A stretch of 64,000 nt of DNA from Tieghemostelium lacteum (taxonomy: Eukaryota > Evosea > Eumycetozoa > Dictyosteliales > Raperosteliaceae), in NCBI GenBank assembly GCA_001606155.1, contig LODT01000029.1:124001-188000 (forward strand), written 5' to 3'. Positions 23,815-61,060 of this stretch are shown one piece after another. The position numbers and the translations under genes are program-made. Position 1 is the stretch's first letter. Every line of letters begins with the position of its first letter. The notes beneath the pieces are model-generated. The model ran no database searches, had not been told where the DNA came from, and was given only the letters and a program-made list of their open reading frames with translations.

Positions 23815-24140
23815 TATCATTCAAATGAATAAGGAAACTGATCTATGCAATGAAAGAGAATTGAACTTGAATCATTATATTCATTTATTGAAATATATTC
23901 AATGATATAATTTAAAAATAAAGAATATAAATTAAAATAATTAAATTTCAAATTAATTCTGATTATGTATATATTTGAATAACTCTTATTTACAAGAATA
24001 AAAATATTGAATTGATATTAATAAAAAAAGAGTGACATTCGTTATTGGCGATCTACCGATGCTACTCTCGATTGTCTAACTATTTTCCACTCTTTAAAAT
24101 TTTACTCACTTGAATTTTATTTTAAAAAACAACAATAAAT
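23815..24140 (-). repeat. Dispersed repeat, copy 1
   Basis: About 320 bp homologous to four other segments in this window. It contains block B (ACTGATCTATGCAATGAAAG, 23839-23858, followed by GAGAATTGAAC) and the 69-nt hairpin core at 24027-24095. On the minus strand the core follows a conserved TTCAAGTGAGT segment. This is the most divergent core of the five. No terminal inverted repeats or target duplications are evident. Confidence 0.8.
24027..24095 (-). ncRNA. 69-nt hairpin-closed element, copy 1
   Basis: On the minus strand it begins AAAGAGTGG and ends TCACTCTTT, pairing over 9 positions with one G-U. A run of seven Ts on that strand follows the stem directly, like a Pol III terminator. 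The interior GACAATCGAGAGTAGCATCG is identical to the other copies. There is no meaningful open reading frame. Transcription is inferred only from structure and conservation. Confidence 0.55.
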
Positions 24141-24165
24141 ATGGGGGGGCGAAAAAAGAGTAAAT

Positions 24166-24285
24166 GGTTCATCTGGTGGTGTAATTCCAGAGATCAGAGA
24201 AACTATTGAGTTTACTGGTTATTTCATTGCACCATTTGACCATTCAGAAGAACTCAAATTCTCAGAATGTAAATAACCGTAATTT
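24166..24285 (+). pseudogene. Fragment of the 241-aa secreted-protein family
   Basis: About 120 bp matching the middle of the gene at 36924-37649 and of the minus-strand gene at 61206-61917. It covers the stretch encoding PEIRETIEFTGYFI and the following FDHS segment, then a shortened version of the QILRIVDANN region. It has neither the start nor the end of the gene and the frame is damaged. It abuts the next gene fragment with no spacer, so it is a duplication remnant. Confidence 0.75.
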
Positions 24286-25691
24286 TGAATGGTAAATCAT
24301 TGTTTTTAATCATATTCGAAATTTCATCTCTTTTGATTTCGATACAATAATTTAAACGTTCTAAACAACTTTTGAAGGAGTTATAGATTATACTAACATG
24401 AAATTCACAATGATTTTGGTAGAGGTACTGGACTTGATCCCGTTTACAAAACCTTAATGCCTTTTCCATTGATTTGTATGTAATTTTAATTCTTTCAGGA
24501 TAGAAGTGACATTTTATATAGATAGTCAAGTATTTCCAAACTGTGATAACCATATAGTAAATAAACATCTTCAATAATTACTGAAGTTTCAGTTAATGCA
24601 AGTTCCACCATCTCCAATGATGTGCTATTTATCAAACTATGGCAACCATATATTTTAATGATAGGAAGACAAAGCTTAAATAGCTCCAAATCTTTAACTA
24701 ATTTTGGATTTATAACAATTAAATCATATTGTTGTTCCACCAATTGATTTGATATGATATATTTCAAAGAAGGTATTGATATAAAGGTACTAACCCAAGC
24801 TGCTTTTAATAATTCATCTCTGAAATTTTCAAAAGTACTTAAATATTCAAGTACATTGGTATCTATTGAACTGAGAATAAATGTAATTGAATAGATGGAA
24901 TAGTAGGTTTTGATATTGAAGTGTTGATGAAATAGTTTTACTATTTCAAAATGATCATTAGTGAAGGCATTTCTAGATTCAACACGCTTTGGAAAGAATT
25001 CAATGTTTTTTCCTGGTTGAGTTAGCATATAAACCCATTCATTCTTTGATATTTCATTTCCAATTCCTGTGCCCTCCAATAACCCAAATATATATTTAAG
25101 GTTTTGAGCTGATGAAGAAAGTAATGATCATCCTAATATTTGTACCAAATTCAATTCATATTTGGGATGAAAGAAAGTATGTTGATGTTTCTTTAGAAAC
25201 TGTTCAAAGTTCAAGTCAGGATGTATATTTTCTTCCATTAGATTAAATGGTTCAAATGATGATAGAATCCTATTCTCTAGAATATATTCAATAATTCTAT
25301 AACTAGGTGATGAAAAAATAATATATTTCACTGTATGTTTAACTATAAACCTATTATGTCTAAGTACTGGTAGTAGTAACACAAATGTCTCTAAATCTGT
25401 ATTATTTCTATAGAAAGCTTTTACTTCTTCATTACTGTAATCCATTATACCATTTATATCACCTCTAATGTACCATTCATTATGTGATTTTACTTTATCT
25501 TTTAATAGAGACAATTTAGAAGTATTTACATTTTCAGATTTCTGGATAAAATAAGATAAAGGTATCTTATTATAACTAAAAGAATTCAAATAGTTATCTC
25601 TATAATATTTCTTTACATAAGAAAATATCTTTCCACATAGATATTTATTTTTGAATACTTGTTGATACAATATATATGACTTTGCAATCAT
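24286..25691 (-). pseudogene. Broken copy of the ankyrin-like/solenoid family gene seen at the right edge
   Basis: The 5' end looks original: ATG at 25691, MIAKSYILYQQVFKNKYLCG, the usual head of this amoeba family. From about 25250 to 24290 the DNA is close to that of 62990-63999. Relative to that copy it has an in-frame TGA near 25132 where the other has an Arg codon. It also lacks about 27 codons after YMLT (near 25020), has a frame change near 24500-24570, and is truncated at 24286. Helical repeats of ~30 residues suggest an ankyrin-like solenoid that is too diverged to be certain. This host gene copy is dead or recently dying. Confidence 0.75.
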
Positions 25692-25878
25692 TTAGACCTA
25701 AATGAAAAAATCTTAAAAAAAAGTTTACATTCCTCATAAATTACAGGTAGTGAGTATTCTCACAAAGTATAAGATAAAATTTAAACAATAAAATATTAAT
25801 CAATTAACTATATATTATCAGTAATATCACTGACCTCTGAAAATATAATAGTACTTTCCGAAAAAATTGTAACTCGAG

Positions 25879-26097
25879 TCAGATATTTCTTTTTGGAAAT
25901 ATTTCATTATAGGTCAATAACACTGACTTGTTTAAATCGTTTGATGACATTGGTAATTGTTCAAAGGATAAATTTATCCTTTTCTTTAATAAATAGGTAA
26001 AAAAAATAACATTAATATCTTTTTCATCCAAAACCTCAAAAAGATCTTGAATTTTTGCTAATATGTTTCCATCTGTTTTGTGCTTGAACTGCATCAT
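25879..26097 (-). CDS. Small hypothetical ORF (72 aa), possibly a gene fragment
   Basis: A 72-codon frame starting MMQFKHKTDGNILAKIQDLF. Part of it (about 25905-25985) recurs as a diverged fragment at 30310-30400, so the sequence has been duplicated. No domain is recognised. It may be the 5' exon or a remnant of a larger family protein rather than a complete gene. Confidence 0.35.
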   Translation of the reverse strand: MMQFKHKTDGNILAKIQDLFEVLDEKDINVIFFTYLLKKRINLSFEQLPMSSNDLNKSVLLTYNEIFPKRNI

Positions 26098-26358
26098 AAA
26101 TATTGGAAAGCAGTCATAAATTTATATTTTGATATATTTCAAACAAAATTGAAAAAATAATCAAATCACTAACTTAATGCTTTTAAATTTTATTTAGTTT
26201 TTTTTTGAAAAAAAATAAAAATAATGAAAGATTAAAATATAAAATGAAAATATAGATGTTCAAACATTTTGAGATGTGAATACTAATAAAAAGATATTCG
26301 AAATGTATATAAATTTTATATCATAACAATTTAAAGTTTTTTTTGGAAAAAAAAAAAA

Positions 26359-26382
26359 ATTTGTTTAATAGGTGAAACAAAT
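26359..26382 (-). terminator. 3' hairpin of family copy A
   Basis: Arms ATTTGTTT/AAACAAAT around an 8-base loop lie about 20 nt beyond the last codon, with a homopolymer A run (T on the sense strand) next to them. The same hairpin and T-run follow both other copies, so the 3' flank was duplicated with the gene. A role in 3'-end formation is inference. Confidence 0.45.
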
Positions 26383-26403
26383 AAACCATTTGTAATATAT
26401 CAA

Positions 26404-28104
26404 CTATTTAGTAACAGTACCATTAACAACACTAAATTCTAAATAACCTAATTTTGAATATTCAGCCCTAAATGGATCATAATCACGGGATCCACAAAAT
26501 TGAACTCTATTTAACATATTATAAGAGGTTTCAATGGTAATGATTCCATAGAAAGAATTTGGGAAATGAATTAATGGAATTGTGATTTTTCCACCTCTAA
26601 CACCTCCATAATTAGGGTATTCTTTGAATCCTTGAGAATTTTTACTTTCCTCTCTATCAGTATTTGGTACATTGATTGCAGTATCATGTGCAATTCTTTT
26701 GTTTTTATCAGTTTCATAAACAACGGTTGATATATGATTTGGGAAATTAAGTTTATCTTTACATATGTTATAGAGTATTAATTTAACATCTGCATCTTCT
26801 TTAACTTCTTCTTTCTTTTTTAATGGATTATCAAATATGGAATTTTCTCAGGGTATTTTGATTGTAACTCCTGCAATTTTTCTTCATCCAAACCATAATT
26901 AATTAGGTCTAGGAAATCATTAGATGATATTGATTGAAAATAAAGCTCTTTCTCAGTAAATGAACTAATAGGTGGAATCTCATCAAATAATTTTTCAATT
27001 TTAACAGAATAGTGATTAACCATGATACAAGAGAGAACGTGGAAACTTAATGAAAATACTTTGGCTCCTGTATTTTTGAAAAATAATCTTGTATCTGTTT
27101 GTAGTGCATCAAATCCAATTGTTATTCCTCTACAACCAGAATAAATATCAACTTTATCACTATACTCTGATGTTGATCTATAATTATGAGATTCCCATTG
27201 ATGTTGTGGATCATATCTAAGAATGTAATTATATTCTTTTTCATCTAATGGAATTATTTTATCTTTTGGCATGACTGGTGGAATTGGATAAACTGTTGGA
27301 TCAAGATCAGTAAAACAATGCCATAATGGTTCTTTAATCTTTTTACTGATTTCAACTTTAGAGAGGTTTTCATAAGATTCAGCAAGTACATCAGAACAAC
27401 GTTGTTTTGCTGATTTATAAGATTTACTTCCTTTAATCTGTTTAGTATTAAATCCCCAACTTTCTCCACATCTATCAAGTTCAGTATAGAAATAAGCAAA
27501 TGCAAATGTTATACCAATGTAGAGTTTACTACATTTTCTAACATAGGTAGGATGAGCACAGAATATTAACAATTCATTGAAACCATTAATAATATTGGTA
27601 ACTCTACTTTTAATAGCTCTTTTACACTCTTTAATATCTTCTTCTGGGTCTTTATCATCAATGGTATCTTGTAATAATCCTAATTCTTTCTTTAGTTCAG
27701 TTAAATTACTCCATACTACTTCAGTTTTCTTTTGACAAAGTTCTAACCAATTTTCTTGGAATAATTCATCCATTTTCTTGTAGACTTCATTAATTCTTTC
27801 ATTTAGCTTGTCAATTTGCTTTTTCAATTGATCAGTTTCAGATTCAAATATTCTACCCAAAACAACTTAATTTAAATCAAATCAAATTTGAATTAGTAAT
27901 TTTAATAAATTTTAAACTAGTGAATAATTAAGTATACATACTTCCAACAACACTTTGTAAAAGTGGACCAATAATTGGAACCATACCAATCAAACCATTT
28001 TGAAGTTGATACCATTCATTGGCTGATATGACCTGAGATTTGATTAAGAAACCTCCTAATCCTGGAGCCATTAAGAATGCCCAGTTATCCTCACCAATTC
28101 CCAT
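26404..28104 (-). pseudogene. Two-exon 'GRIFESETD' family, copy A (broken)
   Basis: Third member of the family whose intact copies are at 41720-43464 and 46409-48169. It keeps the small first exon (27942-28104 visible), the GTATGT...AAG intron and nearly the whole second exon. It also keeps the 3' hairpin seen after the other copies. The first dozen codons of exon 1 found in the paralogues are absent, so translation could only begin at an internal Met. The second exon looks broken about once. Nucleotide similarity to the intact copies is high, so the damage is probably recent. See copy B for the protein description. Confidence 0.75.
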
Positions 28105-28682
28105 ATCTTTATTTTTTATTTTTTTATCTACTTATCTTACCAAATCAAGAGTTGTATTGGATCAATACAAAACAATTTGGATATGTTTTGGGTTAAATGA
28201 GTTTTTGTTATAAAATTTGTACCACAAATTAATCATATAGTTTCTTAGATTTTAAAAGATTTGGAATTAATAATTTTTTATTATTTTTTATTACAGTTTA
28301 TATATTTAGATTTGTGAGTGTTGAATTTGAAGTCGTTGTTTCTTTTCCCATATCAAACAATGGTTGGTTTAAAGTCATACTATGATGTGATATATTATTA
28401 TCATATCATATTAACACCTCCCTTCTTTCATAGAACCTTGAAGATAATTTGGTACTTTGATACCTTTAACTACAAATAGTTTTTCAACTAACCTTCCATT
28501 GTAACTATTATATCTAATAGTCTAGAGATAATATATATAAATAGAATTATATGTAATAAGAATGATGTTTATTTAATTTATTATATGTTTTTATATTTGT
28601 TTGTTGTGTGTTGCCAACGAATTTGTAATAATGTTTGTTCTACAAATTCGTTGTTATATTTAACCGGGTTTTAATACTTCAT

Positions 28683-28710
28683 ACTATGATGTTATATGTA
28701 TTATCATAGT
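28683..28710. repeat. Inverted repeat downstream of a minus-strand stop codon
   Basis: Perfect 8-bp arms ACTATGAT and ATCATAGT around a 12-nt loop, just 3' of the stop at 28724 on the minus strand. A diverged copy at about 28380-28410 sits just 3' of the stop at 28411. Both probably arose with duplicated terminal exons and may act in 3'-end formation. Confidence 0.4.
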
Positions 28711-29189
28711 AACATTCCATCTATCATTTGTTAGAATGCACTTTAAAACCATTCTTAGCTTGATCATTCTATAATATAAAAGAAGTTGGTGTGCTCATAT
28801 ACTTATACTATTAATATATACATCCACCAATTCTTTGGCATCCCTTGGTACTCTTTCTCCCATCTCTTTATATCTTTCTGACACTGAGCTTTGGGTCTGT
28901 TGGTATCCCTCATGTCTAGACTATCCATCTGCCAAAACTGTATTTTTCTTTGAATCCTCATATGAGACTACGATCCTTCTTCAAATGTTCATCTAATTTT
29001 TCTCTCGGCTTCTGAACGTGCATAGATTTTGGTTCATCTTTAATCTATTCATTTTCACTTCTTTTTTCTTTACTATCTTCAACTTTTCCTGTACGATCAA
29101 AAGCCTCTACAAATCTTCTTGAACCTAATCTCCTCCACAAGGGCTTGGGCATGATTTCGCACGTTTTTATTTTGTTTTCCTGTTAATTA

Positions 29190-29325
29190 AAAAACTACTT
29201 CTACTTCTACTTCTACTTCTACTTCTACTTCTACTTCTACTTCTACTTCTACTTCTACTTCTACTTCTACTTCTACTTCTACTTCTACTTCTACTTCTAC
29301 TTCTACTTCTACTTCTACTTCTGCT
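29190..29325 (-). repeat. Hexanucleotide (AGAAGT)n microsatellite coding (Arg-Ser)n
   Basis: Roughly 22 tandem ACTTCT units, that is AGAAGT on the minus strand. They are nearly perfect and in frame as alternating Arg-Ser, preceded by NRHSRSRS. RS tracts are typical of splicing factors. The purity at DNA level points to recent slippage expansion rather than selection on the protein alone. Confidence 0.85.
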
Positions 29326-30189
29326 GTGTCTATTTGGTATGGGTTCTCTATCTCTGTGGTTATTATTATTATTAATATTATTTTGAGCTTGTTGAAATAA
29401 TCTCATTAAATTATCATAATTGATACTATTATTAATATCCAATTCTTCATCTGATTTTTCTTCAATAATAACAGCTGTGCACTTTTGAAATCTAGAAGAT
29501 TCAAGATTCTCAACTGTTGTGTATTTTAAAGAAGGTTTAAGTTAGGTAAAACATACTATATTTTAAAGATGATTAGTTTGACTTATAACATTAATATTAA
29601 AGGTTACAATACATACACAATATTTTTCAATGGTACTATGCAATGGAAGACCAGAGACTATATTGATCAACCTGAATATCTACCTCGGTGTATGAAGAGT
29701 GTTCTGCTTGGATGTAGAGTCTTTGAGTTGTACCATCTGCATTTGAAATAGTTTTCAATTCCTTTGTCCAAAAATTCACAAACTTTTTCCCTGGTGTTGG
29801 TAAATATGAACACTATCATATGAGGGTTTTAATTACTAATGGTTTACCAAAATGGGTAGGTTGACCAATACAATATAAACTTCAGCTTTCTTTTTTTGGT
29901 ATTTAGAATTCTTTCAATAGCTGATAATTCTGGTGAATTTCTAGAGTCAGGTTTGGAAGAGAGTAAATGAGATCTTTTGGAACTACTATTTTTATTTTCC
30001 TAATATTTTAATTAATATTAATATTTACAGATTGACATTATTATTTTCAATACTTCTATACATACCTGAGCATTATTTAATTTTTTGGAATACCCAGACA
30101 GACTTTGCATTGCTGTAGCACCTTATCAGAGCTTGTGTTGGCTCGACATTCTTCAATTAGTTTAAAAATGGTCTCATCTATGATTAGAT

Positions 30190-30410
30190 CTCTCTCATTT
30201 CTCTAAAGCAATTGGTTCAGGAGTTACACAATAAACAAAGTAGATCCTTCAAAAACAGTGTGATTATTCTAATAAATGGATCACCACCAGTATCTATTCT
30301 GGATTTCATTATAGGTCATAACACTGACTTGTCTAAATCGTTTGACGTTGTTTGTGCCAACATTGGTAATTGTTCAAAGAATTTATCCTTTATTATATTA
30401 CTAAATGAAA
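30190..30410. pseudogene. Chimaeric fragment: secreted-protein 5' part fused to a small-ORF fragment
   Basis: Positions 30190-30305 match the plus-strand text of 61720-61840, the 5' part of the minus-strand secreted-protein gene, with several damaging changes. Directly after it, 30310-30400 matches 25905-25985, part of the 72-aa ORF. Neither parental neighbour is kept. It joins pieces of two accessory genes immediately upstream of the SPT16 gene, which starts at 30496. Confidence 0.7.
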
Positions 30411-30495
30411 TGTTTTTCCCTGAAAAAATGATGGCGGTCTTTTTTTAAATTTTTTTTTAAATTTTTTTTATTATTTTGAATATTCACTCTAAGGA

Positions 30496-33910: not shown

Positions 33911-33974
33911 TAAATATTCAATATTATTATAATTTTATTATTTTAATTAATATTTCATACAATTATAAAAGGTT

Positions 33975-35043: not shown

Positions 35044-35176
35044 CTTTCAACTTCACAAATTTTAATAAAAAAACTAATAAAAAAAAAAAATTCATTTCAA
35101 ATCAAAATAAATTAATTAAATAAATTACATTTATTTCAAAAAATTAGATTGATTGATTCATTTATATAGGTGAGTT

Positions 35177-36923: not shown

Positions 36924-37649
36924 ATGAATAGAATATACAGTATAGTTGTAATATTGGTTTTAGTTTCTTCGTTGGTTAGTAGTCAAATTGACAGTGGAAT
37001 GAATATTGGGTATAGAATTGAAAGAACTGAAGCAGGGGACTACGGTATAAGAATTTATCCAGAAATTGATTTTGAAGGTATATATTTCGTTTATGGTATT
37101 ACAACAAACCCTATAACTTTGGAAAGAAACAATAGAATTCCAATGAATGATTGGATTCCATTGAATAGATTTGATTTAAGAGCTGGTGAAATGTATATTG
37201 TCATTCAACAAAATGAAAGAGAAAATGTAACTTCTCAATCCACAAAGTTTATTCCAAATGCTTTTGCAATCAGTCAATACAGTTATCCAGCAAGTCAATG
37301 TGCACTAACTGTAAAAATTACAATTGTTGGTTCAACTGGTGTTATTGATTCACTTTATAGAGAGAGAGTACAATTCACTGGTTATTTCATTGCACCATTT
37401 GATCATTCAGGAAGAACTCAAATTCTCAGAATTGTAGATGCAAATAACGGTGATTTTGAATGTTCGAATCCAATTGAACTCAGAGGAAATTCAGATTTCC
37501 CAAGTACAGGTTCATCTCTCAAAAGAATAAGTTGTGAATTACCACCAGGTCCATGCAGAGATACAACTTTCTTATTTGTTGGGCAAGACAGTAACTCTCG
37601 TGGAACACCTTTCAATTTCTACTGTCAAGATCCAAATATCAAATGTTAA
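36924..37649 (+). CDS. Secreted protein, dictyostelid family (241 aa)
   Basis: An intronless 241-residue protein with a clear signal peptide (MNRIYSIVVILVLVSSLVSS). The mature part is beta-rich (IDSGMNIGYRIERTEAGDYG; RFDLRAGEMYIVIQQNE) with six cysteines, mostly near the C-terminus, so it is probably disulphide-bonded. It has no membrane anchor and no recognised domain. Relatives: a divergent gene at 61206-61917 (-) and fragments at 24166-24285, 30190-30305 and 62237-62380. Its last ~240 bp are almost identical to the 61206 gene while the first part is quite different, suggesting gene conversion. Confidence 0.75.
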   Translation: MNRIYSIVVILVLVSSLVSSQIDSGMNIGYRIERTEAGDYGIRIYPEIDFEGIYFVYGITTNPITLERNNRIPMNDWIPLNRFDLRAGEMYIVIQQNERENVTSQSTKFIPNAFAISQYSYPASQCALTVKITIVGSTGVIDSLYRERVQFTGYFIAPFDHSGRTQILRIVDANNGDFECSNPIELRGNSDFPSTGSSLKRISCELPPGPCRDTTFLFVGQDSNSRGTPFNFYCQDPNIKC

Positions 37650-37739: not shown

Positions 37740-38410
37740 ACAATGCATTCGAATAATTTATATTATGTTTTAATATAACATATCAAAAAGTGATGGGATT
37801 AATGGTTTCCACCAAATTTACTTTAATACCCAAACATTTGGTTTTCAAATTAACTTGATAAATTCTATTAATTCAACAAGTCACTTGATCAATAAATTTA
37901 TATTTAAAAAAAATTAAATACTTTCTAGAATTCAATATAAACTATGGGTATATTAGTTAAATATATACTTGTTTATCTTAATAAAGGTATTAACCATTGT
38001 TCAACCATCTATAAATATTAAATCACCATTCATTAAATAAATAAAAATAAAAAAAAAACAAAAAACCATACTTAAATGATTTTTAGAAACATTTTTTATT
38101 TCTATTCTAAACTGATATATGCAATGAAAGAGAATTGAACATGAATCATTATATTCATTTAATGAGATAAATTCAATGTTATAAATTAAAAATAAAGTAT
38201 ATAAATTAAAATAATTAAATTTAAAATTAATTATTATGATGATTTTATTTTAATAACTCTGAATTACAATAATAAAAAAATTGAATTGAAATAAATAAAA
38301 AAAGAGTGGGTTTAGTTATTGGCGATCTACCGATGCTACTCTCGATTGTCTAACTATTTACCACTCTTTAAAATTATACTTACTTGAAATTTATATTTAA
38401 AAAAAAAGTT
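37740..38410 (-). repeat. Dispersed repeat, copy 2 (long form)
   Basis: Homologous to copy 3 over its full length: a peptide-coding remnant (37790-37910, plus strand), the ATTAACCATTG...ATCACCATTCATT block (37988-38036), block B (38112-38150) and the 69-nt core (38301-38369, minus strand). The peptide part and the core face each other. It lies between the secreted-protein gene and the Hsp20 gene. Confidence 0.75.
38301..38369 (-). ncRNA. 69-nt hairpin-closed element, copy 2
   Basis: On the minus strand it begins AAAGAGTGG and ends CCACTCTTT, a perfect 9-bp closing stem, followed by a T-run of seven. The upstream TTCAAGTAAGTATAATTTT segment is kept. The interior is identical to copy 5. No reading frame; transcription not proven. 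Confidence 0.6.
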
Positions 38411-40552: not shown

Positions 40553-40566
40553 GTATACCATTAATA

Positions 40567-41719: not shown

Positions 41720-43464
41720 ATGGATTTTGAAACAAAGTTAAAAAAGGTTTCTAAAGATATGGGAATTGGTGAGGAGAACTGGGCATTCTTAATGGCTCCA
41801 GGAATAGGAGGTTTCTTAATCAAATATAAGATCATATCAGCCAATGAATGGTATCAACTTCAAAATGGTTTGATTGGTATGGTTCCATTTATTGGTCCAC
41901 TTTTACAAAGTGTTGTTGGAAGTATGTATAATTGTTTACTAATTTTTTAAAATTAAAAAAACTAATTCAAATTTGATTTGATTTAAATTAAGTTGTTTTG
42001 GGTAGAATATTTGAATCTGAAACTGATCAATTGAAAAAGCAAATTGAAAAGTTAAATGAAAGAATTAATGAAGTCTACAAGAAAATGGATTCTTTATTCC
42101 AACAAAATTGGTTAGAACTTTGTCAAAAGAAAACTGAAGTAGTATGGAGTAATTTAACTGATCTAAAGTCAGAATTAGGATTATTACAAGATAGCATTGA
42201 TGCTGAAGACCCAGAAAATAATATTAATGAGTGTAAAAGAGTTGTTAGAAATAGAGTTGCCAATGTTATTAATGGTTTCAATGAATTGTTAATATTCTGT
42301 GCTCATCCTACCTATGTTAGAAAATGTAGTAAACTCTACATTGGTATAACATTTGCATTTGCTTATTTCTATTCAGAACTTGATAGATGTGGAGAAAGTT
42401 GGGGATTTAATCCTAGACAGATTAAAGGAAGTAAATCTTATAAATCAGCAAAACAACGTTGTTCTGATGTACTTGCAGAATCTTATGAAAACCTCTCTAA
42501 AGTTGAAATCAGTAAAAAGATTAAAGAACCATTATGGCATTGTTTTACTGATCTTGATCTAACAGTTTATCCAATTCCACCATTCATGCCAAATGATAAA
42601 ATAATTCCATTAGATGAAAAAGAATATAATTACATTCTTAGATATGATCCACAACATCAATTGGAATCTCATAATTATAGATCAACATCAGAGTATAGTG
42701 ATAAAGTTGATATTTATTCTGGTTGTAGAGGAATAACAATTGGATTAGATCGTTATAATCAACATTCAGATACAAGATTATTTTTCAAAAATACAGGAGC
42801 CAAAGTATTTTCATTAACTTTCCACGTTCTCTCTTGTATCATGGTTAGTCACTATTCTGTTAAAATTCAAAAATTATTTGATGAGATGCCAACCATTAGT
42901 TCATTTTCTGAGGGAGAGCTTTATTATTATCTAACAAGATATTCTAGTGGTTACCCAAATATACCTGGGTTGGATTTCAAAAATTTGATGGAGTTACAAT
43001 CAAAATACCCTGAAGAAAATAGAATTGGATATGGTCGTTATAATCCATATGATAAGAAAGATGTTAAAGAAGATGCAGATGTTAAATTAATACTCTATAA
43101 CCTATGTAAAGATAACCTTAATTTCCCAAATCAAAGACCAACCCTTGTTTATGAAACTGATAAAAACAAAAGAATTGCACATCATACTGCAATCAATGTG
43201 CCAAATACTGATAGAGAGGAAAGTAAAAATACTGAAGGATTCATAGAATTCCCTAATTATGGAGGTGTTAGAGGTGGAAAAATCACAATTCCATTAATTC
43301 ATTTCCCAAATTCTTTCTATGGAATCATTACCATTGAAACCTTTGATAATCAATTAAGTAGACATCAATTTGGTGCAACCTATGCACATGATCCATTTAA
43401 AGTTGAATATTCAAAATTAGGTTATTTAGAATTTAGTGTTGTTAATGGTACTGTTACTAAATAA
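41720..43464 (+). CDS. Two-exon 'GRIFESETD' family protein, copy B
   Basis: Exon 1 (41720-41921) and exon 2 (41993-43464) join across GTATGT...TTAAG to give about 557 residues. The splice makes ...LLQSVVGIVLGRIFESETDQ. Residues ~12-80 are hydrophobic and glycine-rich (WAFLMAPGIGGFLIKY; LIGMVPFIGPLLQSVVGIVL), like a membrane-active helical hairpin. Next is a heptad-type coiled coil (LKKQIEKLNERINEVYKKMD), a helical domain with several Cys (FCAHPTYVRKCSKLYIGITF) and a beta-rich C-terminal half. There is no signal peptide. I do not recognise a named family. Helical-hairpin plus coiled-coil plus beta layout is seen in some membrane-acting proteins, but this is inference only. Confidence 0.75.
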
Positions 43465-46408: not shown

Positions 46409-48169
46409 ATGGATTTTGAAACAAAGTTAAGACAGGTTTCTAAAGATATGGGAATTGGTGAGGAGAACTGGGCATTCTTAATGGCTCCAGGATTAGGAGG
46501 TTTCTTAATCAAAGAAAACATCATAACAGCCAATGAGTGGTATCAACTTCAAAATGGTTTGATTGGTATGGTTCCATTTATTGGTCCACTTTTACAAAGT
46601 GTTGTTGGAAGTATGTATACTTAATTATTTAATAATTTTGTATAATTTATTAAAAAAACTAATTCAAATTAAGTTGTCTTGGGTAGAATATTTGAATCTG
46701 AAACTGATCAATTGAAAAAGCAAATTGAAAAGTTAAATGAAAGAATAAATGAAGTCTACAAGAAAATGGATGCTTTATTCCAAGAAAATTGGTTAGAACT
46801 TTGTCAAAAGAAAGCTGAAGTAGTATGGAGTAATTTAACTGAACTAAAGAAAGATTTAGGATTATTACAAGATACCATTGATGATAAAGACCCTGAAGAT
46901 GATATTAAAGAGTGTCGAAGATCTGTTAAAAATAGAGTTACCAATGTTATTAATGGTTTCAATGAATTGTTAATATTCTGTGCTCATCCTACCTATGTTA
47001 GAAAATGTAGTAAACTCTACATTGGTATAACATTAGGATTTGCTTATTTCTATACTGAACTTGATAGATGTGGAGAAAGTTGGGGATTTAATACTAAACA
47101 GATTAAAGGAAGTAAATCTTATAAATCAGCCAAACAACGTTGTTCTGATGTACTTGCTGAATCTTATGAAAACCTCTCTAAAGTTGAAATCAGTAAAAAG
47201 ATTAAAGAACCATTATGGCATTGTTTTACTGATCTTGATCCAACAGTTTATCCAATTCCACCAGTCATGCCAAATGATAAAATAATTCCATTAGATGAAA
47301 AAGAATATAATTACATTCTTAGATATGATCCACAACATCAATTGAACTCTCATAATTATAGACCAACATCAGAGTATAGTGATAAAGTTGATATTTATTC
47401 TGGTTGTAGAGGAATAACAATTGGATTAGATCAATATAGACAACATTCAGATACAACATTATTTTTCAAAAATACAGGATCCAAAGTATTTTCATTAAGT
47501 TTCCACGTTCTCTCTTGTATCATGGTTAGTCACTATTCTGTTAAAATTGAAAAATTATTTGATGAGATACCATCTATTAGTTCATTTACAGAGGCAGAGC
47601 TTTATTATTATCTATCAAGATCTGCCAGTACTACTGGTTTCTCATTAATACCTGGTTTGGATTACAAAAAATTAATGGAGTTACATTTAAAATACCCTGA
47701 AGAAAATAGAAGGGGATCCTTTGGTTATGATGATTATATGGATGGTACAACTAATAAGAAAGAAGAAGTTAAAGAAGATGCAGATGTTAAATTAATACTC
47801 TATAACATGTGTAAAGATAAACTTGATTTCCCAAATCAAAGACCAACCGTTGTTTATGAAACTGATGAAAAAAACAGAATTGCACATCATACTGCAATCA
47901 ATGTACCCAATACTGATAGAGAGGAAAGTAAAAATACTGTAGGATTCAAAGATTTCCCTAATTATGGAGGTGTTAGAGGTGGAAAAATCACAATTCCATT
48001 AATTAATTTCCCAAATTCTTTCTATGGAACTATTACCATTGAAACCTATGATAATGAATTAAGTAGACATCAATTTGGTGCAACCTATGCATATGATCCA
48101 TTTAAAGTTGAATATTCAAAATTAGGTTATTTAGAATTTAGTGTTGTTAATTATACTGTTACTAAATAG
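46409..48169 (+). CDS. Two-exon 'GRIFESETD' family protein, copy C
   Basis: Exon 1 (46409-46610) and exon 2 (46674-48169) give about 565 residues. It is closely similar to copy B, with the same splice (VVGIVLGRIF), coiled coil and C-terminus (KVEYSKLGYLEFSVVNYTVT). The greatest difference is a length-variable acidic/basic stretch around 47700-47770 (ENRRGSFGYDDYMDGTTNKK), which differs in all three copies and may be a surface loop. Exon 1 repeats the hydrophobic glycine-rich segment. Intact frame, conserved promoter word and conserved 3' hairpin suggest an active gene. Confidence 0.75.
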
Positions 48170-50782: not shown

Positions 50783-50889
50783 ATATTTTTATGTTAAATG
50801 TTTGAATGTGTATGAACAGACAGTTCTTATCCTGTAACCAGTATTTTTAGTATTTTTTTTAAAAATAAAATTCAAGTAAGTATAATTTT

Positions 50890-50958
50890 AAAGAGTGGTA
50901 AATAGTTAGACAATCGAGAGTAGCATCGGTAGATCGCCAATAACGAAAACCACTCTTT
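50890..50958 (+). ncRNA. 69-nt hairpin-closed element, copy 3
   Basis: AAAGAGTGGT pairs with ACCACTCTTT (10 bp), followed by seven Ts (50956-50962). Interior motifs: GTTAGACAATCGAGAGTAGC and ATCGGTAGATCGCCAATAAC; GTTA and TAAC could form a second inner stem. The flanks diverge faster than the core in all pairwise comparisons made by eye. Confidence 0.6.
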
Positions 50959-51342
50959 TTTTATTAATATCAATTTAATATTTTTATTATTGTAATTTAG
51001 AGTTATTCAAATAAAATCATCATAAGAATTAATTTGAAATTTAATTATTTTAATTTAAATTCTTTACTTTTAATTTAAACATTAAATTTATCTCATTAAA
51101 TGTATGTATTGATACATGTTCAATTCTCTTTCATTGCATAGATCAGTTTCCTTATTCATTTTAACAATATGAGAATAGTTTTTTATTTGTTTTTTTTTTA
51201 TTTTTTAAAAAATGAATGGTGATGTAATATTTATAGATGGTTGAAATGGTTAACATCTGTATTAAGAAGATAAACAAGTAAATAGTTAACTGACATACCA
51301 TAATATAATTTTTATTCCCAATTCTAGAGAGTATATATTTTT

Positions 51343-52194: not shown

Positions 52195-52500
52195 TTTTAG
52201 TATTTTTTTTAAAAATAAAATTCAAGTAAGTATAATTTTAAAGAGTGGTAAATAGTTAGACAATCGAGAGTAGCATCGGTAGATAGCCAATAACGAAAAC
52301 CACTCTTTTTATATTGATATTAATTCAATATTTTTATTTTTGTAATTAAAACTAATTCAAATAAAATCATCATATGAATTTAATTGAAATTAAATTATTT
52401 TGATTTATATTCTTTATTTTTAAATTATAACTTTGATTTTATCTCATAAAATGAATTTAAAGATTCATGTTCAATTCTCTTTCTTTTCATAGATTCTACC
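52195..52500 (+). repeat. Dispersed repeat, copy 4 (short form)
   Basis: From CCAATATTTTTAGTATTTTT (about 52189) through the 69-nt core to a partial block B (TGTTCAATTCTCTTTC, near 52470). It lacks the peptide part. Its left junction text is shared with copies 3 and 5, so that end of the element seems well defined. Confidence 0.75.
52240..52308 (+). ncRNA. 69-nt hairpin-closed element, copy 4
   Basis: Same 10-bp closing stem as copy 3, followed by five Ts. The interior differs from copy 3 by one visible base (AGATAGCC instead of AGATCGCC). No reading frame. Confidence 0.6.
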
Positions 52501-52983
52501 CTATACAATTTAATTGTAGATTTCAAATATTAAAATTCATATGGGGATGGTTTTTATTTTTTAAATTTATGTAAATGAAAACTTAAAATTAGAGATTTAA
52601 AGAAAATTTTGATATAATCACCAATCTTTGTTTAAAAAAAACAATTATTAAGTGTACTTTTTTAAAAAAAATTGTTTAGTGATCAAGTAATAAAAAAATA
52701 ATAACATTTCATTTACACTTTTTTTTTTTTTTTTAATTTTAAAACATTTTTTATAAAAATCAACCCTTATGAACAAATAAAACAAAGATAATAATATTAT
52801 TTCTTAGAAAATCAATAAACTAAAGAACTTCATTGAGAAAAATCTTTTTTTAATTGATTTTGTGTTGTCATTGACAAATTTCAAACAAAGCAACTGGGAT
52901 TTTCCTAGATACATGTATGTAAAAGATATTCATTTTTTAAAAATATATCCACATTATTCTAACTCTTAAAAATAGAGGAAAAA
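52501..52983. other. AT-rich intergenic region
   Basis: Only homopolymer and AT-rich DNA, with a T16 run at 52719-52734. It should contain the promoter of the following gene. Nothing else is seen. The stretch 51673-52188 is similar in character. Confidence 0.5.
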
Positions 52984-53748
52984 ATGAGCGATAAATATAG
53001 TAGTGCTAATAACAACAGTTGTGAACTATCAAGTGATAGGGAAGAAGAGGAAACAACAAATAAAATTGTATATAACAATAATAACAATAATAATAATAAT
53101 AATAATGTAAATAGTAATAATAATAATAATAGTAGCAGTAATCGTAAGAGATATAGAGATTTTGAGGAATTTGGGTCTAATACCACTTCAATAAGTAGTA
53201 ATCCTGGTACCAACACTATTGTTGAAGATACAGCAGAGCTTTTAAATAGGAGTGAAAATCTTCCAAATAAAAAGATCAAATTCTCAGTTCAGATTGAAAA
53301 TAAACAAATTCAAGAAGCAATTAACCAATTTAAAATCATATCATGTCAAGAATTAAAGAAATTGTGTAAAGAGGAGGGTTTAGATACAAAATCTGCAGTT
53401 GATAGATTAGTATATAAGATTCAAACTGATAAATCTGCATTGTTGCCACCTATACCTATACCTACAAATTCCAATAAAAAGGTACTACCATCACCACCTC
53501 TACCAACATCTATTGATAGATCTGAGATTAATTTTGTTATGGAACTAAGTGGGTTTTCTGAAGAAGAAGCCAAAAGAGTTTTAACTTTGAAAAAAGAAAT
53601 TGTAAATCTTAGAAAGAATGGTTTTGATCATACAGCTGCCATCTCTGAATTATCAAGGAGACTTAAAACAAATTCATCAACTACAACAACTGTTGATTCT
53701 CAAGCACTACAACATTCAAATTCCACTTTACTTACTGTACATAGTAAC

Positions 53749-53803
<55 letters not shown>

Positions 53804-54462
53804 GTAATAATAATAATAATATTTCACCAGTAGCCAAAAAACCCTTGTCACCCACACATAAAAGAACTCACGATAGCGAACCTATAGACAGCATTTTATT
53901 GAAAAAATTAAAAAATCAAAATAATAATGATGCTATAATAGCAAATGTAAATATACCAATTTCACCACCTCCGTCACTACCATCAACTACAACTACTACA
54001 ACAACCACTTCAACATATATTCCGCAACCTCCTATAAATATATTAAAACAACAGATTAATAATAATAATATATCACAACCTCTTCCAAAGAAAACTATAT
54101 CTTTCAAACATCATAATATAGGTAATAAATATAAATTTCATGATGATGAAGATGTGACAACTGATGAATCTTCAGATGACTTATCGTATATATATGATCA
54201 AGATGAATCAGAAGAAGAGAGTGATGATAACAAAGATCACTATATAAAGAGATTTAAAAAAGGGAAATTAGATCATGACAATAGTAATGAAACTGATAGT
54301 GACGATGATGATATTGTTGATAATGACGATGAAGATGATGATAATGATCAAGCCATTATAGATAGATCATTACTTTACTATAAAGATTCTTCAAATTCAT
54401 TTAATAATTGGACTACCACTTCAACAAAATCAAATTCGATAATTTCTCAAATAAATTTATAA
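52984..54462 (+). CDS. Acidic, poly-Asn nuclear-type protein with a SAP-like motif
   Basis: A 492-residue single-exon protein. Around residues 100-142, QIQEAINQFKIISCQELKKL...EEGLDTKSAVDRLVYKIQ resembles a SAP DNA-binding helix pair. Around 185-222, VMELSGFSEEEAKRVL...GFDHTAAISELSRRL looks like a UBA/CUE-type three-helix unit. The rest is low complexity: poly-Asn (near 53075-53130 and 53750-53815, the latter a pure AAT microsatellite), Pro/Thr-rich stretches, Lys/Arg clusters and an acidic C-terminal third (DEDVTTDESSDDL). A nuclear role is inferred. Poly-Asn is common in dictyostelid proteins and not informative. Confidence 0.65.
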
Positions 54463-54604
54463 ATTATAAACAAACAAAGTCATCCTCCAACACACTCCCA
54501 ATTAAAATATAACCTGTAAATTTCAATACCAATATGTAGTTGACAATACATGTATTTTTATATTTTTTTTAATTTTTCATTTTTTAATTTTAGGATTTTG
54601 GAAA

Positions 54605-57048
54605 ATGAGTAGCCCGAAAAACGATAAATCAACTTCAAAGAGTACTACAACTACTACTACAACACCAACTACCACTCCTGTTGGTAATGAAAAGAAAAAG
54701 AATTTTGTGGTACCAAGAAAAATTGATATAAACTCATTTATTACTGCCAGAAAGATTGAAATCTCAAAGTTTATGAGAGATTTTAAAGTTAAAAAATGTA
54801 ATTCCAGAGCATTTCAATCATTACCTAGATATCTAAGAAGAAGAACAATGAGCCATAATATCTACAGATTACCAATATATCTCAGAAAGAGAGCACAGAG
54901 AGAGATTGAAAAATCTGAAAAACAGTCTATGGCACAGGCTGAGAAGAGAAATGTTAGAAAATCACGTAGAAGACCTGCATATTTACTAAGAGATTACAAT
55001 AGAAGACAAAAACAATTTAAGTGGTTGGAAACTCATATTTGGCATGCAAAAAGAATGAAAATGATCAATTTGTGGAATTATCGTGTGGCACAGTCAATTA
55101 GTGGTAAAGGTGTTAGAGCAACTTATAGAGCCTCAAGTCATTATTCTACACTCTATGACGCATCTTATCATATTTGTATTGAGATTACAGGTTTACAAAA
55201 TTCAATAATTCAATTGTTTAAATTGATTTCACCACCTTTGAGTTCAAGTGAGACTACAATAGCTTCGAGAATTTATATTAATGGTTGTAGAGAAGGTTCT
55301 GTGAATATATATTATCCCAATAGATTTCCATTTCATTTTATATGTCCATCTAGATTTTTATGGAAACAAGAGAATAGTGGTGCATTGAATTTGGATAGTC
55401 ATCAAAGAATGTTATGGTTATGGGTACATCCTTCAGTAGTTGATCAAGTAATGTATATATTGGAATTGGAATCTATTAGATTAAGTGTCACTATAAAGTC
55501 ACTTCAAGATCATCTTTTGAGATTTGAATTAACTGGTTCAAAATCTCATCAAATTTTAAATAATGTTTTAAAACCACTAAAATCTTCAAATGCTACCAGC
55601 ACCAATAATAATAATAATTCACAATTAACATCAGAACAAGTATGGAATGTACTTGGTCAACTTAGAACCTCATCAACATTGGTTACAGGTACTGTTTTAT
55701 CATTGGATACATATGATCCAAGACTTATATGTAAAGTCTCTGAAGAGATATCTTTACAGGTTGGATCGGTATCCACACCCCCATACATGAAAAATCAAGA
55801 TAATACACCATCCAATCTATCAATGAACGATATTATAGTTAATTGGAATAAGATATGTTCACAAGTTGCTGTATCTAAATTGTGGTCTGAAAATGAACGT
55901 AAACTAATGAAATCCAATATACAAACCAACCATAGTTGTAATCAACAAAGAAAAACTACAAATCTTCCAACTCGTGAATCTTGTAAATATTCATCACCTA
56001 CTGTCATGTTGATTCAGAGAGACGGGGCATTAACACGTGGGTATGGGTCAGGATGGGACATTATCATACCCAGTGGTTGGGGAATGCAATTTTGGTTAGG
56101 TTTGATTTATTCAGGCTGTTGGGCTATTGGATTATTTGATAGAGATAGATCATTACTAGAACAAGGGTTACCTTCATTCCCAAGAGACTATCCAGATACT
56201 TTAGTCTCTAGAGATTACTATGAAACCCTAAACAAAGATCTCATTGAAAAATACAAAAGAACCCCACCTGCAAAAAAAACAAATTATCTACTTAATGGTA
56301 TCTATTTTCCATTTGAACCATGTTGGAATTGGATTCTCAATTTACCTTTAAATCAGAGTATATCATTTGATGATAATCAAACTACTACCAATACCACTAA
56401 GAAAAGTGATAAAAATGAAGAAGAAGATGAAGTTGAACAACAATTGAAAAAGAAAAAACATAAGAATCTACTTGGTGATTCTAAAGAAACTAATTTTAAA
56501 TCACAAAATTATTTTGTGTATAGAGGTAATATGGCATTAATGTTGGTGTCATCTAGTTTGGAACAGAATGTTAAACCTAATGAAAGAGGTTTAGTTAGAG
56601 TATCTATAAAAATGATGAATGGTGGTAAACCATTGCCAAATTCTGTAATTTATCAGCCATTGAACAAAGATGTAGAGATTCTAAAATCTATAAAATATCA
56701 AAAGAATTTCAGATCACGTGAAATTGAATTACCAAAGAAAATGCCAACCAATCCAATAGATTTCTATAATCAACAAGAAAGAAAACCAATTGGTTTTGTA
56801 GTTAATGGTGAACAATCTTTAGCTAGAGGTGTTGGTAGTGGTATTGGATATTGTTCTGCAATTCAATTTACAGAATTACATAAAAATGCTATAGAGTATG
56901 TAAAATATCCACAATTTTCAATAATCTAATACTAATACATTATCTATCTAATCTATTTAGAAAATCATATTCACCATCTGGATTTGCATATATTCAAAAT
57001 CCTAAATCTAAACTACTGGATCCTGTTATATTAACAATTCAACCATAA
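54605..57048 (+). CDS. pop1: RNase P/MRP protein subunit POP1
   Basis: Exon 1 (54605-56895) and exon 2 (56961-57048) give 792 residues; intron GTATGT...TTTAG. The N-terminal POP1 domain is basic (FQSLPRYLRRRTMSHNIYRL; LETHIWHAKRMKMINLWNY). The central POPLD-type region has RDGALTRGYGSGWDIIIPSG and WGMQFWLGLIYSGCWAIGL. The C-terminus has PIGFVVNGEQSLARGVGSGI and, after the splice, SGFAYIQNPKSKLLDPVIL. Reading through the intron would end the protein 12 codons later without this conserved tail. POP1 is the largest protein of RNase P and RNase MRP, scaffolding the RNA for tRNA 5' maturation and rRNA processing. Confidence 0.93.
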
Positions 57049-57294
57049 TAAAATATAGATTTTTACAAATCATATATCACCTGTATTACTGATACTATTT
57101 ATGAATTATGAATTGTCCTAAACTGTATTGAGTAGCTATTTATATGATTATCTAACAAAATTTATTGAGTCTATGGAATTAAAATTCTATATTTGTTCTT
57201 AATTAATAGATTTAAATGATAGTTAAATGATGATGCACGTCTTGTAATTTTCTATAAAAATATAAATGTTAATATCAATTTTAAAGATCTATAT

Positions 57295-57522
57295 CTATAA
57301 ATTGTAAGTGATGCATACTGCTTCTCTTTTACATTGTTCGATTTGTCTTAATTCTTCAGCACATTTTGATGGGTCAAATTCATATGAACTTAAACATTGT
57401 GCATATAATCCAAAGAAACTTGCACAATTAACTTTTTCTCTTCTTACAACTGGCATTTTATTTCTATATCTAGGTGATAATTTAAATGGATTATCATCAC
57501 GATCTTGAGTTTCTTTACCCAT
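57295..57522 (-). CDS. Twin CX9C (CHCH-domain) mitochondrial protein
   Basis: A 75-residue single-exon protein. Two helices carry the CX9C pattern exactly: CASFFGLYAQC and CAEELRQIEQC, 12 residues apart, forming a CHCH fold. The head is basic (FKLSPRYRNKMPVVRREKVN). Such proteins are imported into the intermembrane space by Mia40 and either assemble respiratory complexes or, like CHCHD1/mS37, sit in the mitoribosome. The basic head and size recall CHCHD1, but I would not assign it. Confidence 0.8.
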   Translation of the reverse strand: MGKETQDRDDNPFKLSPRYRNKMPVVRREKVNCASFFGLYAQCLSSYEFDPSKCAEELRQIEQCKREAVCITYNL

Positions 57523-57870
57523 TTTCTGATGTAGATTAACTAAATGAAAAAAAACTTTCGATTTTTTTTTTTTTAATGAAATGTAATTTATTTATCATAA
57601 TCAAATAATTCAACCCCTTTTATTCCTAAACAATGAAATAATATCAAAAAGTTTTTCCTTTCTTCATATCAATGATACTTGTATTTATCAATTGTTAAAT
57701 ATTGTTTTACAAAATTCATGTGTGGAAGTGTGTTTAATTAAAAATCATTTTTTTATTTATCTGTTGTGTATATTTTACAATAATTACTGTTACTATTATT
57801 GACTTTTTTTTATATAAATTATATATAATTCAAAACTTTTATTCAAAGTACATCAATTATTTTTTGATTG
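57523..57870. other. AT-rich divergent promoter region
   Basis: 348 nt between the divergent CHCH and spore-coat-type genes. T/A runs at 57551-57573 and AT-rich DNA near 57800-57840. No gene seen. Confidence 0.5.
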
Positions 57871-58950
57871 ATGAAAATCCATTTAAATTTAATATTGTTG
57901 TTACTACTTTTATATTATTGTTCTTGTACAATAAATTCATCGATCAGTAGTAACAGTATAGCATGTGAAGATTTATCTATATCAGAATGTCAATCTAATC
58001 CCTCTTGTAGATTACAAAAACTCAATAGTTGTTGTAAAGATGAAATTACAGTGTGTGTCAATTCAAAATTAATTGAACATACTTCTAAAACCACTTTATA
58101 CTGTCTAAAAAACAAGATTTCAAATGAAATTTATACTTTACATTCAAATAATCTGACGCATTATCAGTCGAGAAGTGATATGCAGTCATTTGATTTCTAC
58201 AGAGCTAATAGAGAGAGTTGTAAGACATTAGCTTGTGAAAAGAGGAATCTTCATTGTCAGTACACTGCAACGGAATGTGAATACGATTCACCATGTTGTC
58301 AACCTACACCTTATTGTACAGAAATTCGAAATATAAACAAATTGACAAATGTCTATCCTGCATCTGGTGTTTGTGAACTTCCTTGTCCTACAGGATATGT
58401 TTGTAGGTATCTGATAGAGAACAAAACATGTCTACCTAAGAACTGTGACTATTTAGATTGTCCACTAAATACAGAGTGTCTGGAACTTCAAGGTGTTGGT
58501 ATAGTATCATGTTTTCCAAAGTTTTTTTCAGAGTCTGAAGAAGATGAAGACCCAAATGCAACATGTGCTCATCGTGTGTGTCCTGAGAATTTTGTATGTC
58601 AGAAAGGATTACATTCAAATGCCGATTGTATTCCTGTAACTGTAGGTCTATTAGGTCAGAATTTTAATTGTAGTATATGTCCAAAAGGATGGAGGTGTGA
58701 TTCATTTGGTTGGGGTGGTTTGTGCATTGAATGGGCAGCTGAAATTGAAGAAGACTGCTACCAAGAAAAATGCCTCAAAAATCAATTTTGTAATTCAAAA
58801 ACTCAATCTTGTGAATATCAAAGATGTACAAAAACTACATGTGGTCCTGGACTCACATGTATTCAATACCAACCATCACATCCTCGTGTATGTGCCACAG
58901 ATAATATTTTACCATTTACTAATTTACCTGCAGACCTAGTGGTCTTTTAA
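57871..58950 (+). CDS. Spore-coat-type secreted cysteine-rich protein
   Basis: The start is the ATG at 57871 (359 residues). A long signal peptide (MKIHLNLILLLLLLYYCSCT) is followed by a cysteine-rich N-terminal module, CEDLSISECQSNPSCRLQKL...CC, which resembles the DSCP-N domain of dictyostelid spore coat proteins (SP96/SP70 group). A middle Cys-rich part includes CEYDSPCCQPTPYC. Three or four follistatin-like repeats follow (CPTGYVCRYLIENKTC; CPENFVCQKGLHSNADC; CPKGWRCDSFGWGGLC; CGPGLTCIQYQPSHPRVC). There is no anchor. These proteins are stored in prespore vesicles and bind cellulose or each other in the spore wall; that role here is by family. Confidence 0.8.
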   Translation: MKIHLNLILLLLLLYYCSCTINSSISSNSIACEDLSISECQSNPSCRLQKLNSCCKDEITVCVNSKLIEHTSKTTLYCLKNKISNEIYTLHSNNLTHYQSRSDMQSFDFYRANRESCKTLACEKRNLHCQYTATECEYDSPCCQPTPYCTEIRNINKLTNVYPASGVCELPCPTGYVCRYLIENKTCLPKNCDYLDCPLNTECLELQGVGIVSCFPKFFSESEEDEDPNATCAHRVCPENFVCQKGLHSNADCIPVTVGLLGQNFNCSICPKGWRCDSFGWGGLCIEWAAEIEEDCYQEKCLKNQFCNSKTQSCEYQRCTKTTCGPGLTCIQYQPSHPRVCATDNILPFTNLPADLVVF

Positions 58951-58991
58951 TAAAAACCCCCAAAATCTCGAGATTCATTAAATTCCCTCAA

Positions 58992-60402
58992 TTAGAAAGT
59001 GTATACTTTATTCTCTAATCTTGCTTTTTCAGCTTGGAATACCAAATTGTGAGATTGCAAGGTATCATCTGGACCAGACAATATCTGAGTTGGATCATTT
59101 TCTGAGACTGCATAGACAAATGATCTCATGAGATAATAATCAGCACAATTGTGACCTGTCATTTTAGTATCTTTAACCAATTCAGGTTTAAAGATTTCCT
59201 TATCACCCATTTTAAAGTCATCCCATATAATAGTGTGTCCATTACACTCCAATTGACCATGTGATCCAAAGATTTTAGTTTTTCTAACACAAATCTCTTC
59301 AGTAAAGGAGACCATGGAGAATGAGCATAGTTCACCACCTTCAAACTCCATATTCACTACTTGTTGATCTACAACATCATTATCATGTTCATAAACACAT
59401 CTACCATAGGGACCATTTTGCAGAGCTATTTTTACATTCTCTATAGTTGGATCTTGACCTGGTACAAGAACCTCTCTCTTATAGGGATAGTGTTGTAGAT
59501 AAATAGTCTTTGCAGAATAAGGACATGTATTTTGAAGTGGACATTCAAGACATCTCTTCACATCACCAGCTTCCTTAGGTTTATTCAATTTATTAAAATA
59601 ACTCTGGGATCCAAAACTACTAATCTTTGTACACTTCTTTTGCATCCAAAAATGAATTAAATCAATATCATGACATGACTTTGCCATTAACATAAATGTT
59701 GATTTATCTTTTCTATTCCAGTTACCACGTACATATGAGTGTGCAGTATGATAATATCCAACCTTTTAATAAAAACTATATTAGGAACTTTCATTTCCAT
59801 TAAATATATATAAATTTTAAAGAAATACATACTGGTTCTAAATGTTGTATATTTAATATTCTACCTATATAACCAGCATCAATAAGAGATTTAATCTTTA
59901 AATTATATGGAGTATATCTTAGAACATGACAAACTGATAGAATTATATTATTATCTTTTGCAGCTTTAACCATTCTTTTACAATCCTGTTGAGTAACAGC
60001 CATTGGTTTTTCAACTAAAAGATGATAACCAGCATTTGCAAATGCAATTGAAGGTTCACAATGTAGTTGATCAGGTGTTGCAATGAGAACTGCATCACCA
60101 ATCTTCTCTTTACTCTTTACTATATCATTCCAGTCTTCATAGATTCTCTCAGGTGGTATATCAAATGAAGCTGCCAATTTATCTCTACGATATTTAATTA
60201 CATCACACACTGCTACAATTTTTAATCTGTTAGGTCTCTCTTTTGCATAGAGTGAATATACATAACCTCTATTCCCACAACCAACAATAACCAATCTAAC
60301 TACTTTATTGTTATTATATTTTGATTCATCATCTTCTACTGATGGTTTATTTTTTTCAACAATGGTTTCCGAAGTATTCCTACCATCAATATTTATTGAC
60401 AT
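58992..60402 (-). CDS. Gfo/Idh/MocA-family oxidoreductase
   Basis: Exon 1 (60402-59833) and exon 2 (59762-58992) join in phase 0 to give 446 residues. The N-terminal Rossmann fold has VRLVIVGCGNRGYVYSLYA (GxGxxG). The family lysine lies in YHLLVEKPMAVTQQDCKRMV. After it, NIILSVCHVLRYTPYNLKIK and, across the splice, HLEP then VGYYHTAHSYVRGNWNRKD and AKSCHDIDLIHFWM, the usual catalytic Asp/His region. These enzymes oxidise or reduce sugars and inositols with NAD(P). The insert with four Cys (CLECPLQNTCPYSAKTIYL region) is found in a subset. The substrate is unknown. Confidence 0.88.
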
Positions 60403-60599
60403 CTTATATTAAAGTGAACAATGTCCAAAAAATTTTTTACTTAAGTATTTCCCTGAATAACCAGGAGATGAGCCACGTTATTGGTATCAAAAAATTAAAA
60501 TATGTCAATTTGAGAAAATATACCAACTTCAACATATTGATATAAAAATGATAGAAATGTATTTATAAATTATTCAAATTTTTTATTCTAAAATACTCT

Positions 60600-61060
60600 T
60601 CAATTTTAATTCTGGATATGCAAGTTAGATATTTATCATCTTAATAGAGATCTCTATTAACCATTGTTCAACAATCTATAAATATTACACCACCATTCAT
60701 AAAAAATTCTCATATGATTTATTTATTTCTATTCTACTGTTAAAATGAATAAGGTAACTGATCTATGCAATGAAAAAGAATTGAACACGAATCATTATAT
60801 TCATTTAATGAGATAAATTCATTTATATATATTATATATAAAGAAATAGTTTGAAATTTAATTATTTTAATATATATTCTTATGATGATTTTATTTGAAT
60901 CTGAATTACAAAAATAAAAATATTGAATTGAAATAAATAAAAAAAGAGTGGGTTTAGTTATTGGCGATCTACCGATGCTACTCTCGATTGTCTAACTATT
61001 TACCACTCTTTAAAATTATACTTACTTGAATTTTATTTTGTTAAAAAAATACTAAAAATA
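60600..61060 (-). repeat. Dispersed repeat, copy 5
   Basis: Contains the ATTAACCATTGTTCAACAAT block (60656-60675), the CACCATTCAT word (60691-60700), block B (60753-60800), the 69-nt core (60943-61011, minus strand) and the shared end text ACTAAAAATATTGG. The peptide part is missing. It lies 150 bp from the secreted-protein gene. Confidence 0.8.
60943..61011 (-). ncRNA. 69-nt hairpin-closed element, copy 5
   Basis: Perfect 9-bp closing stem AAAGAGTGG/CCACTCTTT on the minus strand, followed by a run of seven Ts. Identical by eye to copy 2 over all 69 nt, although the flanks of these two copies differ clearly. Confidence 0.6.

Follow-up and report, generated by a model that had tools for sequence, protein, structure and literature searches.

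A locally duplicated 69-nt element in Tieghemostelium lacteum: a candidate family of small structured RNA genes

Five 69-nt copies and the units that contain them

The stretch of DNA analysed here (the window) comprises 64,000 nt from the social amoeba Tieghemostelium lacteum (assembly GCA_001606155.1, contig LODT01000029.1, positions 124,001 to 188,000) and carries a 69-nt element in five copies, which an earlier inspection of the letters without database searches (the sequence-only reading) had proposed to be either RNA polymerase III (Pol III)-type small RNAs or the structured core of a non-autonomous element. All five copies were recovered at their original coordinates and strands, each exactly 69 nt long. 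When the window was searched with an nhmmer profile of the five cores, the copies scored E 6.2e-24 or better and the next match E 11, which excludes chance, and no sixth copy was found, not even a decayed one. The cores, numbered as copies 1 to 5, are:

24027-24095, minus strand: copy 1 core, 69 nt, with one G-U closing pair
38301-38369, minus strand: copy 2 core, 69 nt, identical to copy 5
50890-50958, plus strand: copy 3 core, 69 nt
52240-52308, plus strand: copy 4 core, 69 nt, differing from copy 3 by one change
60943-61011, minus strand: copy 5 core, 69 nt

What had been overlooked is that each 69-mer is embedded in a larger homologous unit, reaching from about -36 to +262 (positions with a sign are relative to the 69-mer):

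23834-24131, minus strand: homologous unit of copy 1, about -36 to +262
38108-38405, minus strand: homologous unit of copy 2
50854-51151, plus strand: homologous unit of copy 3
52204-52501, plus strand: homologous unit of copy 4
60750-61047, minus strand: homologous unit of copy 5

Homology between the five copies thus covers about 300 nt, with pairwise identities of 82-90% (78% for copies 2 and 5), and the earlier statement that the flanks diverge is only partly correct. Pairwise alignments start between -35 and -61 and end at about +254 to +276 for the four pairs with copy 1 as well as for copies 2 and 4 and copies 3 and 4, while they extend to +318 for copies 4 and 5, +385 for copies 3 and 5, +439 for copies 2 and 5, and +584 for copies 2 and 3, the last pair sharing a stretch of about 620 nt. 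A perfect 919-nt match between copies 3 and 4 represents the same DNA in overlapping query windows. Beyond the unit, neither side is conserved across all five copies. Judged from these alignments, an intergenic stretch has been duplicated here with ends that vary between pairs, in a region that holds several other local duplications.

Ten predicted proteins of the window were scanned and five match Pfam, among them an FNIP-repeat protein and a protein that has the Dictyostelium spore-coat N-terminus; by its sequence, the window is dictyostelid DNA. Among the other repeats is a protein gene present three times (26820-27860, minus strand; 41998-43464, plus strand; 46679-48169, plus strand) and encoding up to about 500 aa; its copies are 80-97% alike in DNA by pieces, and the single one that was scanned matched nothing in Pfam. 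A small family of proteins that look secreted by eye occurs at 36924-37649 (plus), 61203-61706 (minus) and 24164-24247 (plus), the last being a broken fragment with its edge immediately upstream of copy 1 and next to a G7 run. A local duplication links 24299-25239 with 63001-64000 (86-95% identical by pieces), an array of CTACTT hexamers spans about 29195-29331, and a tiny open reading frame, MNGDVIFIDG or near it, was seen by eye downstream of copies 2, 3 and 5 (at about 38033, minus; 51212, plus; 60700, minus).

Five copies of a unit of about 300 nt, lying on both strands within 37 kb and in a region rich in other local duplications, might also be expected of a non-autonomous mobile element or of a plain segmental repeat without an RNA product, in which the hairpin would be incidental or serve transposition. 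We consider this rather unlikely. Around the five copies, target-site duplications and inverted ends were never rarer than in 26 of 200 shuffles, the unit ends vary between pairs, the window yielded no decayed further copy, and the core evolves more slowly than the downstream flank. The earlier suggestion of a structured core of a non-autonomous element is not supported, in view of the first two of these points, the absence of element ends beyond shuffled expectation and the unequal unit boundaries.

Conservation and predicted folding of the core

Only 6 of the 69 core columns are variable, compared with 72/186 in the downstream part of the unit (+77 to +262, Fisher p 1.3e-6) and 21/64 directly downstream (+77 to +140, p 0.001), so the core changes more slowly than its downstream flank, whereas the difference from the 37 nt upstream (7/37 columns, p 0.21) is not significant. 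Columns 11-45 form a 35-nt invariant run, which was equalled in 2 of 20000 column shuffles; such column tests assume independent columns, and the five copies have a common history. All statements on conservation made here rest on these five related copies. The upstream segment TTCAAGTAAGTATAATTTT, also described as conserved, is so in 17 of 20 columns (-19 to 0), although copy 1 reads GTGAGTAAAA, and no significant second conserved block was detected downstream (+201 to +262 vs +141 to +200, p 0.098). The cores of copies 2 and 5 are identical, and their downstream sequences differ at 36 of 197 sites; three informative columns unite copies 2 and 5 and three others unite copies 4 and 5. The GC content is 38-39% in the core and 14-16% in the flank just downstream. 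Sense coding was considered and rejected, as there are stops in all three sense frames of all five cores.

The closing stem was confirmed in its outline, with AAAGAGTGG at one end of the core in all five copies and, at the other, CCACTCTTT in copies 2 to 5 and TCACTCTTT in copy 1, which gives one G-U pair. Predicted folds pair the core ends in every copy (minimum free energy -14.5 to -18.4 kcal/mol) and are better than the mean of dinucleotide shuffles in 5/5 (z -2.2 to -4.5, for copies that are not independent); folding the whole unit of copy 3 gave z -1.7. The run of 5-7 T reported to follow the stem includes the last three T of the stem itself: counted from nt 67, there are seven T in copies 1, 2, 3 and 5 and five in copy 4, of which the first three belong to the stem, leaving four T after the 69-mer in four copies and two in copy 4. 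The run is listed for copy 3:

50956-50962, plus strand: T7 terminator-like run of copy 3, sharing 3 nt with the 3' end of the 69-mer

Because the T-run begins inside the closing stem, the AAA/TTT part of the stem may be the terminator, which would leave a 6-bp GAGTGG/CCACTC stem.

Searches for relatives gave no match to a known family. Rfam had no match at gathering score in the whole window, and at E up to 10 the 501 bases round copy 3 gave only four, with E 4.3-7.8 and each well short of that score. ARAGORN found no tRNA genes in the window. Relatives were likewise absent from plasmids (171-base query), viral contigs (exact 26-mer) and bacterial and archaeal genomes (exact 21-mer), negatives which say little, as these are not amoeba collections. 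The core sequence strings were absent from the searched literature (supplements lay outside that search), in which no such RNA family appeared by title or abstract opening either. The size and the conserved interior would suit a box C/D or H/ACA small nucleolar RNA (snoRNA), but neither TGATGA nor CTGA occurs in any of the five cores (H/ACA features were judged by eye only) and no Rfam family was matched at gathering score in the window, which makes a snoRNA highly improbable.

Candidate promoter signals and comparison with Class I RNAs

A TATA-like heptamer is located at -26 in all five copies, as TATAAAT in copy 2 and as AATAAAA in the others:

24115-24121, minus strand: TATA-like AATAAAA of copy 1 at -26, weak and common in such AT-rich DNA
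38389-38395, minus strand: TATA-like TATAAAT of copy 2 at -26
50864-50870, plus strand: TATA-like AATAAAA of copy 3 at -26
52214-52220, plus strand: TATA-like AATAAAA of copy 4 at -26
61031-61037, minus strand: TATA-like AATAAAA of copy 5 at -26

In the span scanned for invariant runs, -59 to +299, the longest one outside -5 to +71 is +229 to +238, which coincides with a match of GTTCAATTC to the B-box form GWTCRANNC. This is a consensus match only, and it is present on the same strand as the core at +226 to +230 in 5/5 copies:

23858-23866, minus strand: B-box-like GTTCAATTC of copy 1 at +230
38132-38140, minus strand: B-box-like GTTCAATTC of copy 2 at +230
51118-51126, plus strand: B-box-like GTTCAATTC of copy 3 at +229
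52469-52477, plus strand: B-box-like GTTCAATTC of copy 4 at +230
60778-60786, minus strand: B-box-like GTTCAATTC of copy 5 at +226

The orientation of the T-run agrees with that of the TATA-like box (5/5) and of GTTCAATTC (5/5). A closer B-box match, GTTCGAATCC, lies at 37462 (plus) and 61390 (minus), within the coding sequence of the genes for the secreted-looking proteins, and is probably due to chance.

The arrangement of an upstream TATA-like box, a terminator and a distant B box resembles the promoter layout of the yeast U6 gene SNR6, whose TATA box is reported at -30 and whose B box follows the terminator at a distance of 202 bp from box A (PMC9136082); unlike SNR6, the cores have no good A box, and the Rfam scan gave no U6 match. 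The downstream position of the B-box motif is also reminiscent of the tRNA genes of Dictyostelium, of which about 80% in D. discoideum are reported to have an external B box approximately 100 bp past the internal one (PMC5911963), although here there is no tRNA gene and no internal B box, and the distance is longer.

The units contain a second set of signals that could make the hairpin intronic, to be released from a short host transcript as intronic snoRNAs are: GTAAGT (GTGAGT in copy 1) is found at -13 in 5/5 copies, and a pyrimidine tract ending in CATAG near +245 to +249 in four of them. Copy 2 lacks CATAG, however, and no common exon can be seen, as conservation across the five copies stops at the unit on both sides. 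With about 265 nt, the intron would also be long, given that the likely introns picked out by eye begin with GTATGT and are shorter (a loose scan of nine gene starts, none confirmed), and it would leave the T-run unexplained. We regard an intronic origin as very unlikely.

The dictyostelid Class I RNAs deserved closer comparison, which was drawn from PMC7919456, PMC3188802 and PMC11193728. Class I (and Class II) RNAs start with AAG, have a closing stem opened by a G-C pair, measure about 60 nt and resemble the copies in their GC content, their intergenic clustered location and the T-run that follows many of their genes (PMC7919456, PMC3188802). All five cores begin with AAAG, their 6-bp stem starts with a 5' G that is predicted to pair with C (a pairing without covariation support), and their 69 nt and GC of 38-39% compare with about 60 nt and 32-41% for Class I. 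Against this stands the absence of the 11-mer that adjoins the 5' stem in Class I, in agreement with the sequence-only reading: at most three of its five key positions (T3, C6, C9, A10, A11) are present in any of the five copies, and the 11-mer as given there, CCTTACAGC, occurs nowhere in the window. The 3' end reads CTTT in 5/5 copies, and not CTGT as in Class I.

There is also no strict match near the copies to the Dictyostelium upstream sequence element (DUSE), which in Class I genes lies about 60 nt upstream. The best DUSE score is 6/8 in all five copies, at -47 to -60 (searched from -90 to -40), with a single 7/8 in copy 3 at -144; as a score of at least 6 is obtained in 694 and of at least 7 in 99 of the 1239 control windows, the copies score at chance level. 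ACCA(A/G)TAT occurs in copies 3-5 near -52 to -54 and CCCCATAT in copy 1 at -51, copy 2 having neither, and since some dictyostelid groups have a two-C form of the element, a degenerate DUSE is conceivable, though unlikely. High-scoring Class I loci without a DUSE are reported not to be expressed (PMC7919456), which counts against a Class I identity of the copies. In the same source, Class I interiors are described as highly variable between loci, unlike the nearly invariant interior seen here, albeit among copies that are recent duplicates. Lacking the 11-nt motif, the CTGT end and the DUSE, the copies were not filed under Class I, membership of which we consider unlikely; by a strict rule, no Class I-like genes were found elsewhere in the window.

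A candidate small RNA family

The reading that we favour, with confidence somewhat above even, is that the copies constitute a locally duplicated family of small structured RNA genes, probably transcribed by Pol III. The agreement of T-run, TATA-like box and B-box match makes the Pol III-type small RNA of the sequence-only reading the best-supported of its proposals, if only in part.

Several observations weigh against this reading. Among four distinct core sequences, the 18 pairs of the common structure comprise 17 invariant pairs and one change from G-C to G-U, giving no compensatory change (0/18), and the structure is plausible only, as its stem lacks such changes. The identical cores and differing flanks of copies 2 and 5 are compatible with selection but could also have arisen by gene conversion. 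Core GC alone is not rare, as 7% of the 69-nt stretches in the window have a GC of 40% or more. The TATA-like box is a weak signal, because such a heptamer occurs in 293 of 1239 AT-rich control windows (8-position span). The B-box motif was reached after several others had been tried, which makes the frequency of matches outside the units (19 sites in 60460 bases, amounting to 0.0006 for each 10-nt window with both strands counted) an optimistic figure; with a match in 21 of 300 AT-rich windows of 200 nt, its frequency alone is unremarkable. Moreover, it lies 156-160 nt past the core, without an internal B box, and on its own a B box reportedly recruits the Pol III complex poorly (PMC5391098). 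No core has an A box of the form TRGYNNARNNG or TRRYNNARYNG (0/5), and the most permissive published form, which does match at +17 in 5/5 (TNNNNNANNNG), has 2279 matches in the window. If a DUSE is generally needed, the reported silence of high-scoring Class I loci without one counts against expression of the copies as well.

A further point of this kind is that in 5/5 copies no stop interrupts antisense frame 2 within the core (33-42 aa from stop to stop), as might be so if the core were a short exon that codes for protein on the opposite strand. This is very unlikely, as the open frame has no ATG in any copy. By eye, 5 of the 6 variable core columns alter an amino acid, the opposite of coding constraint, and the T-run, the closing stem and the B-box match would all be coincidence.

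If the copies are indeed small RNA genes, each would encode a structured non-coding RNA of about 66-72 nt and would have been duplicated locally along with its control region. Pol III would most likely transcribe it, with TFIIIB at the TATA-like box 26 nt upstream and TFIIIC at the B box, which lies about 160 nt downstream of the end of the RNA, and transcription would stop at the T5-T7 run. In the cell, the 5' and 3' ends of the RNA would pair as a stem of 6-9 bp that shields it, and we infer that this stem would present the nearly invariant interior GACAATCGAGAGTAGCATCGGTAGAT as a binding site for a protein or target RNA.

It is possible, though we put it forward tentatively and doubt it more than the RNA genes themselves, that this represents a second class of dictyostelid small RNA, with the outer form of Class I, a fixed interior, and a TATA box and external B box in place of the DUSE. 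Class I RNAs are reported to occur in social amoebas alone and to be linked to their multicellular development (PMC7919456). If the copies do form a separate family with its own type of promoter, this would speak for more than one origin of such RNAs; the fixed interior would point to one conserved partner, and a family of this kind would escape searches that rely on the 11-nt motif and the DUSE of Class I.

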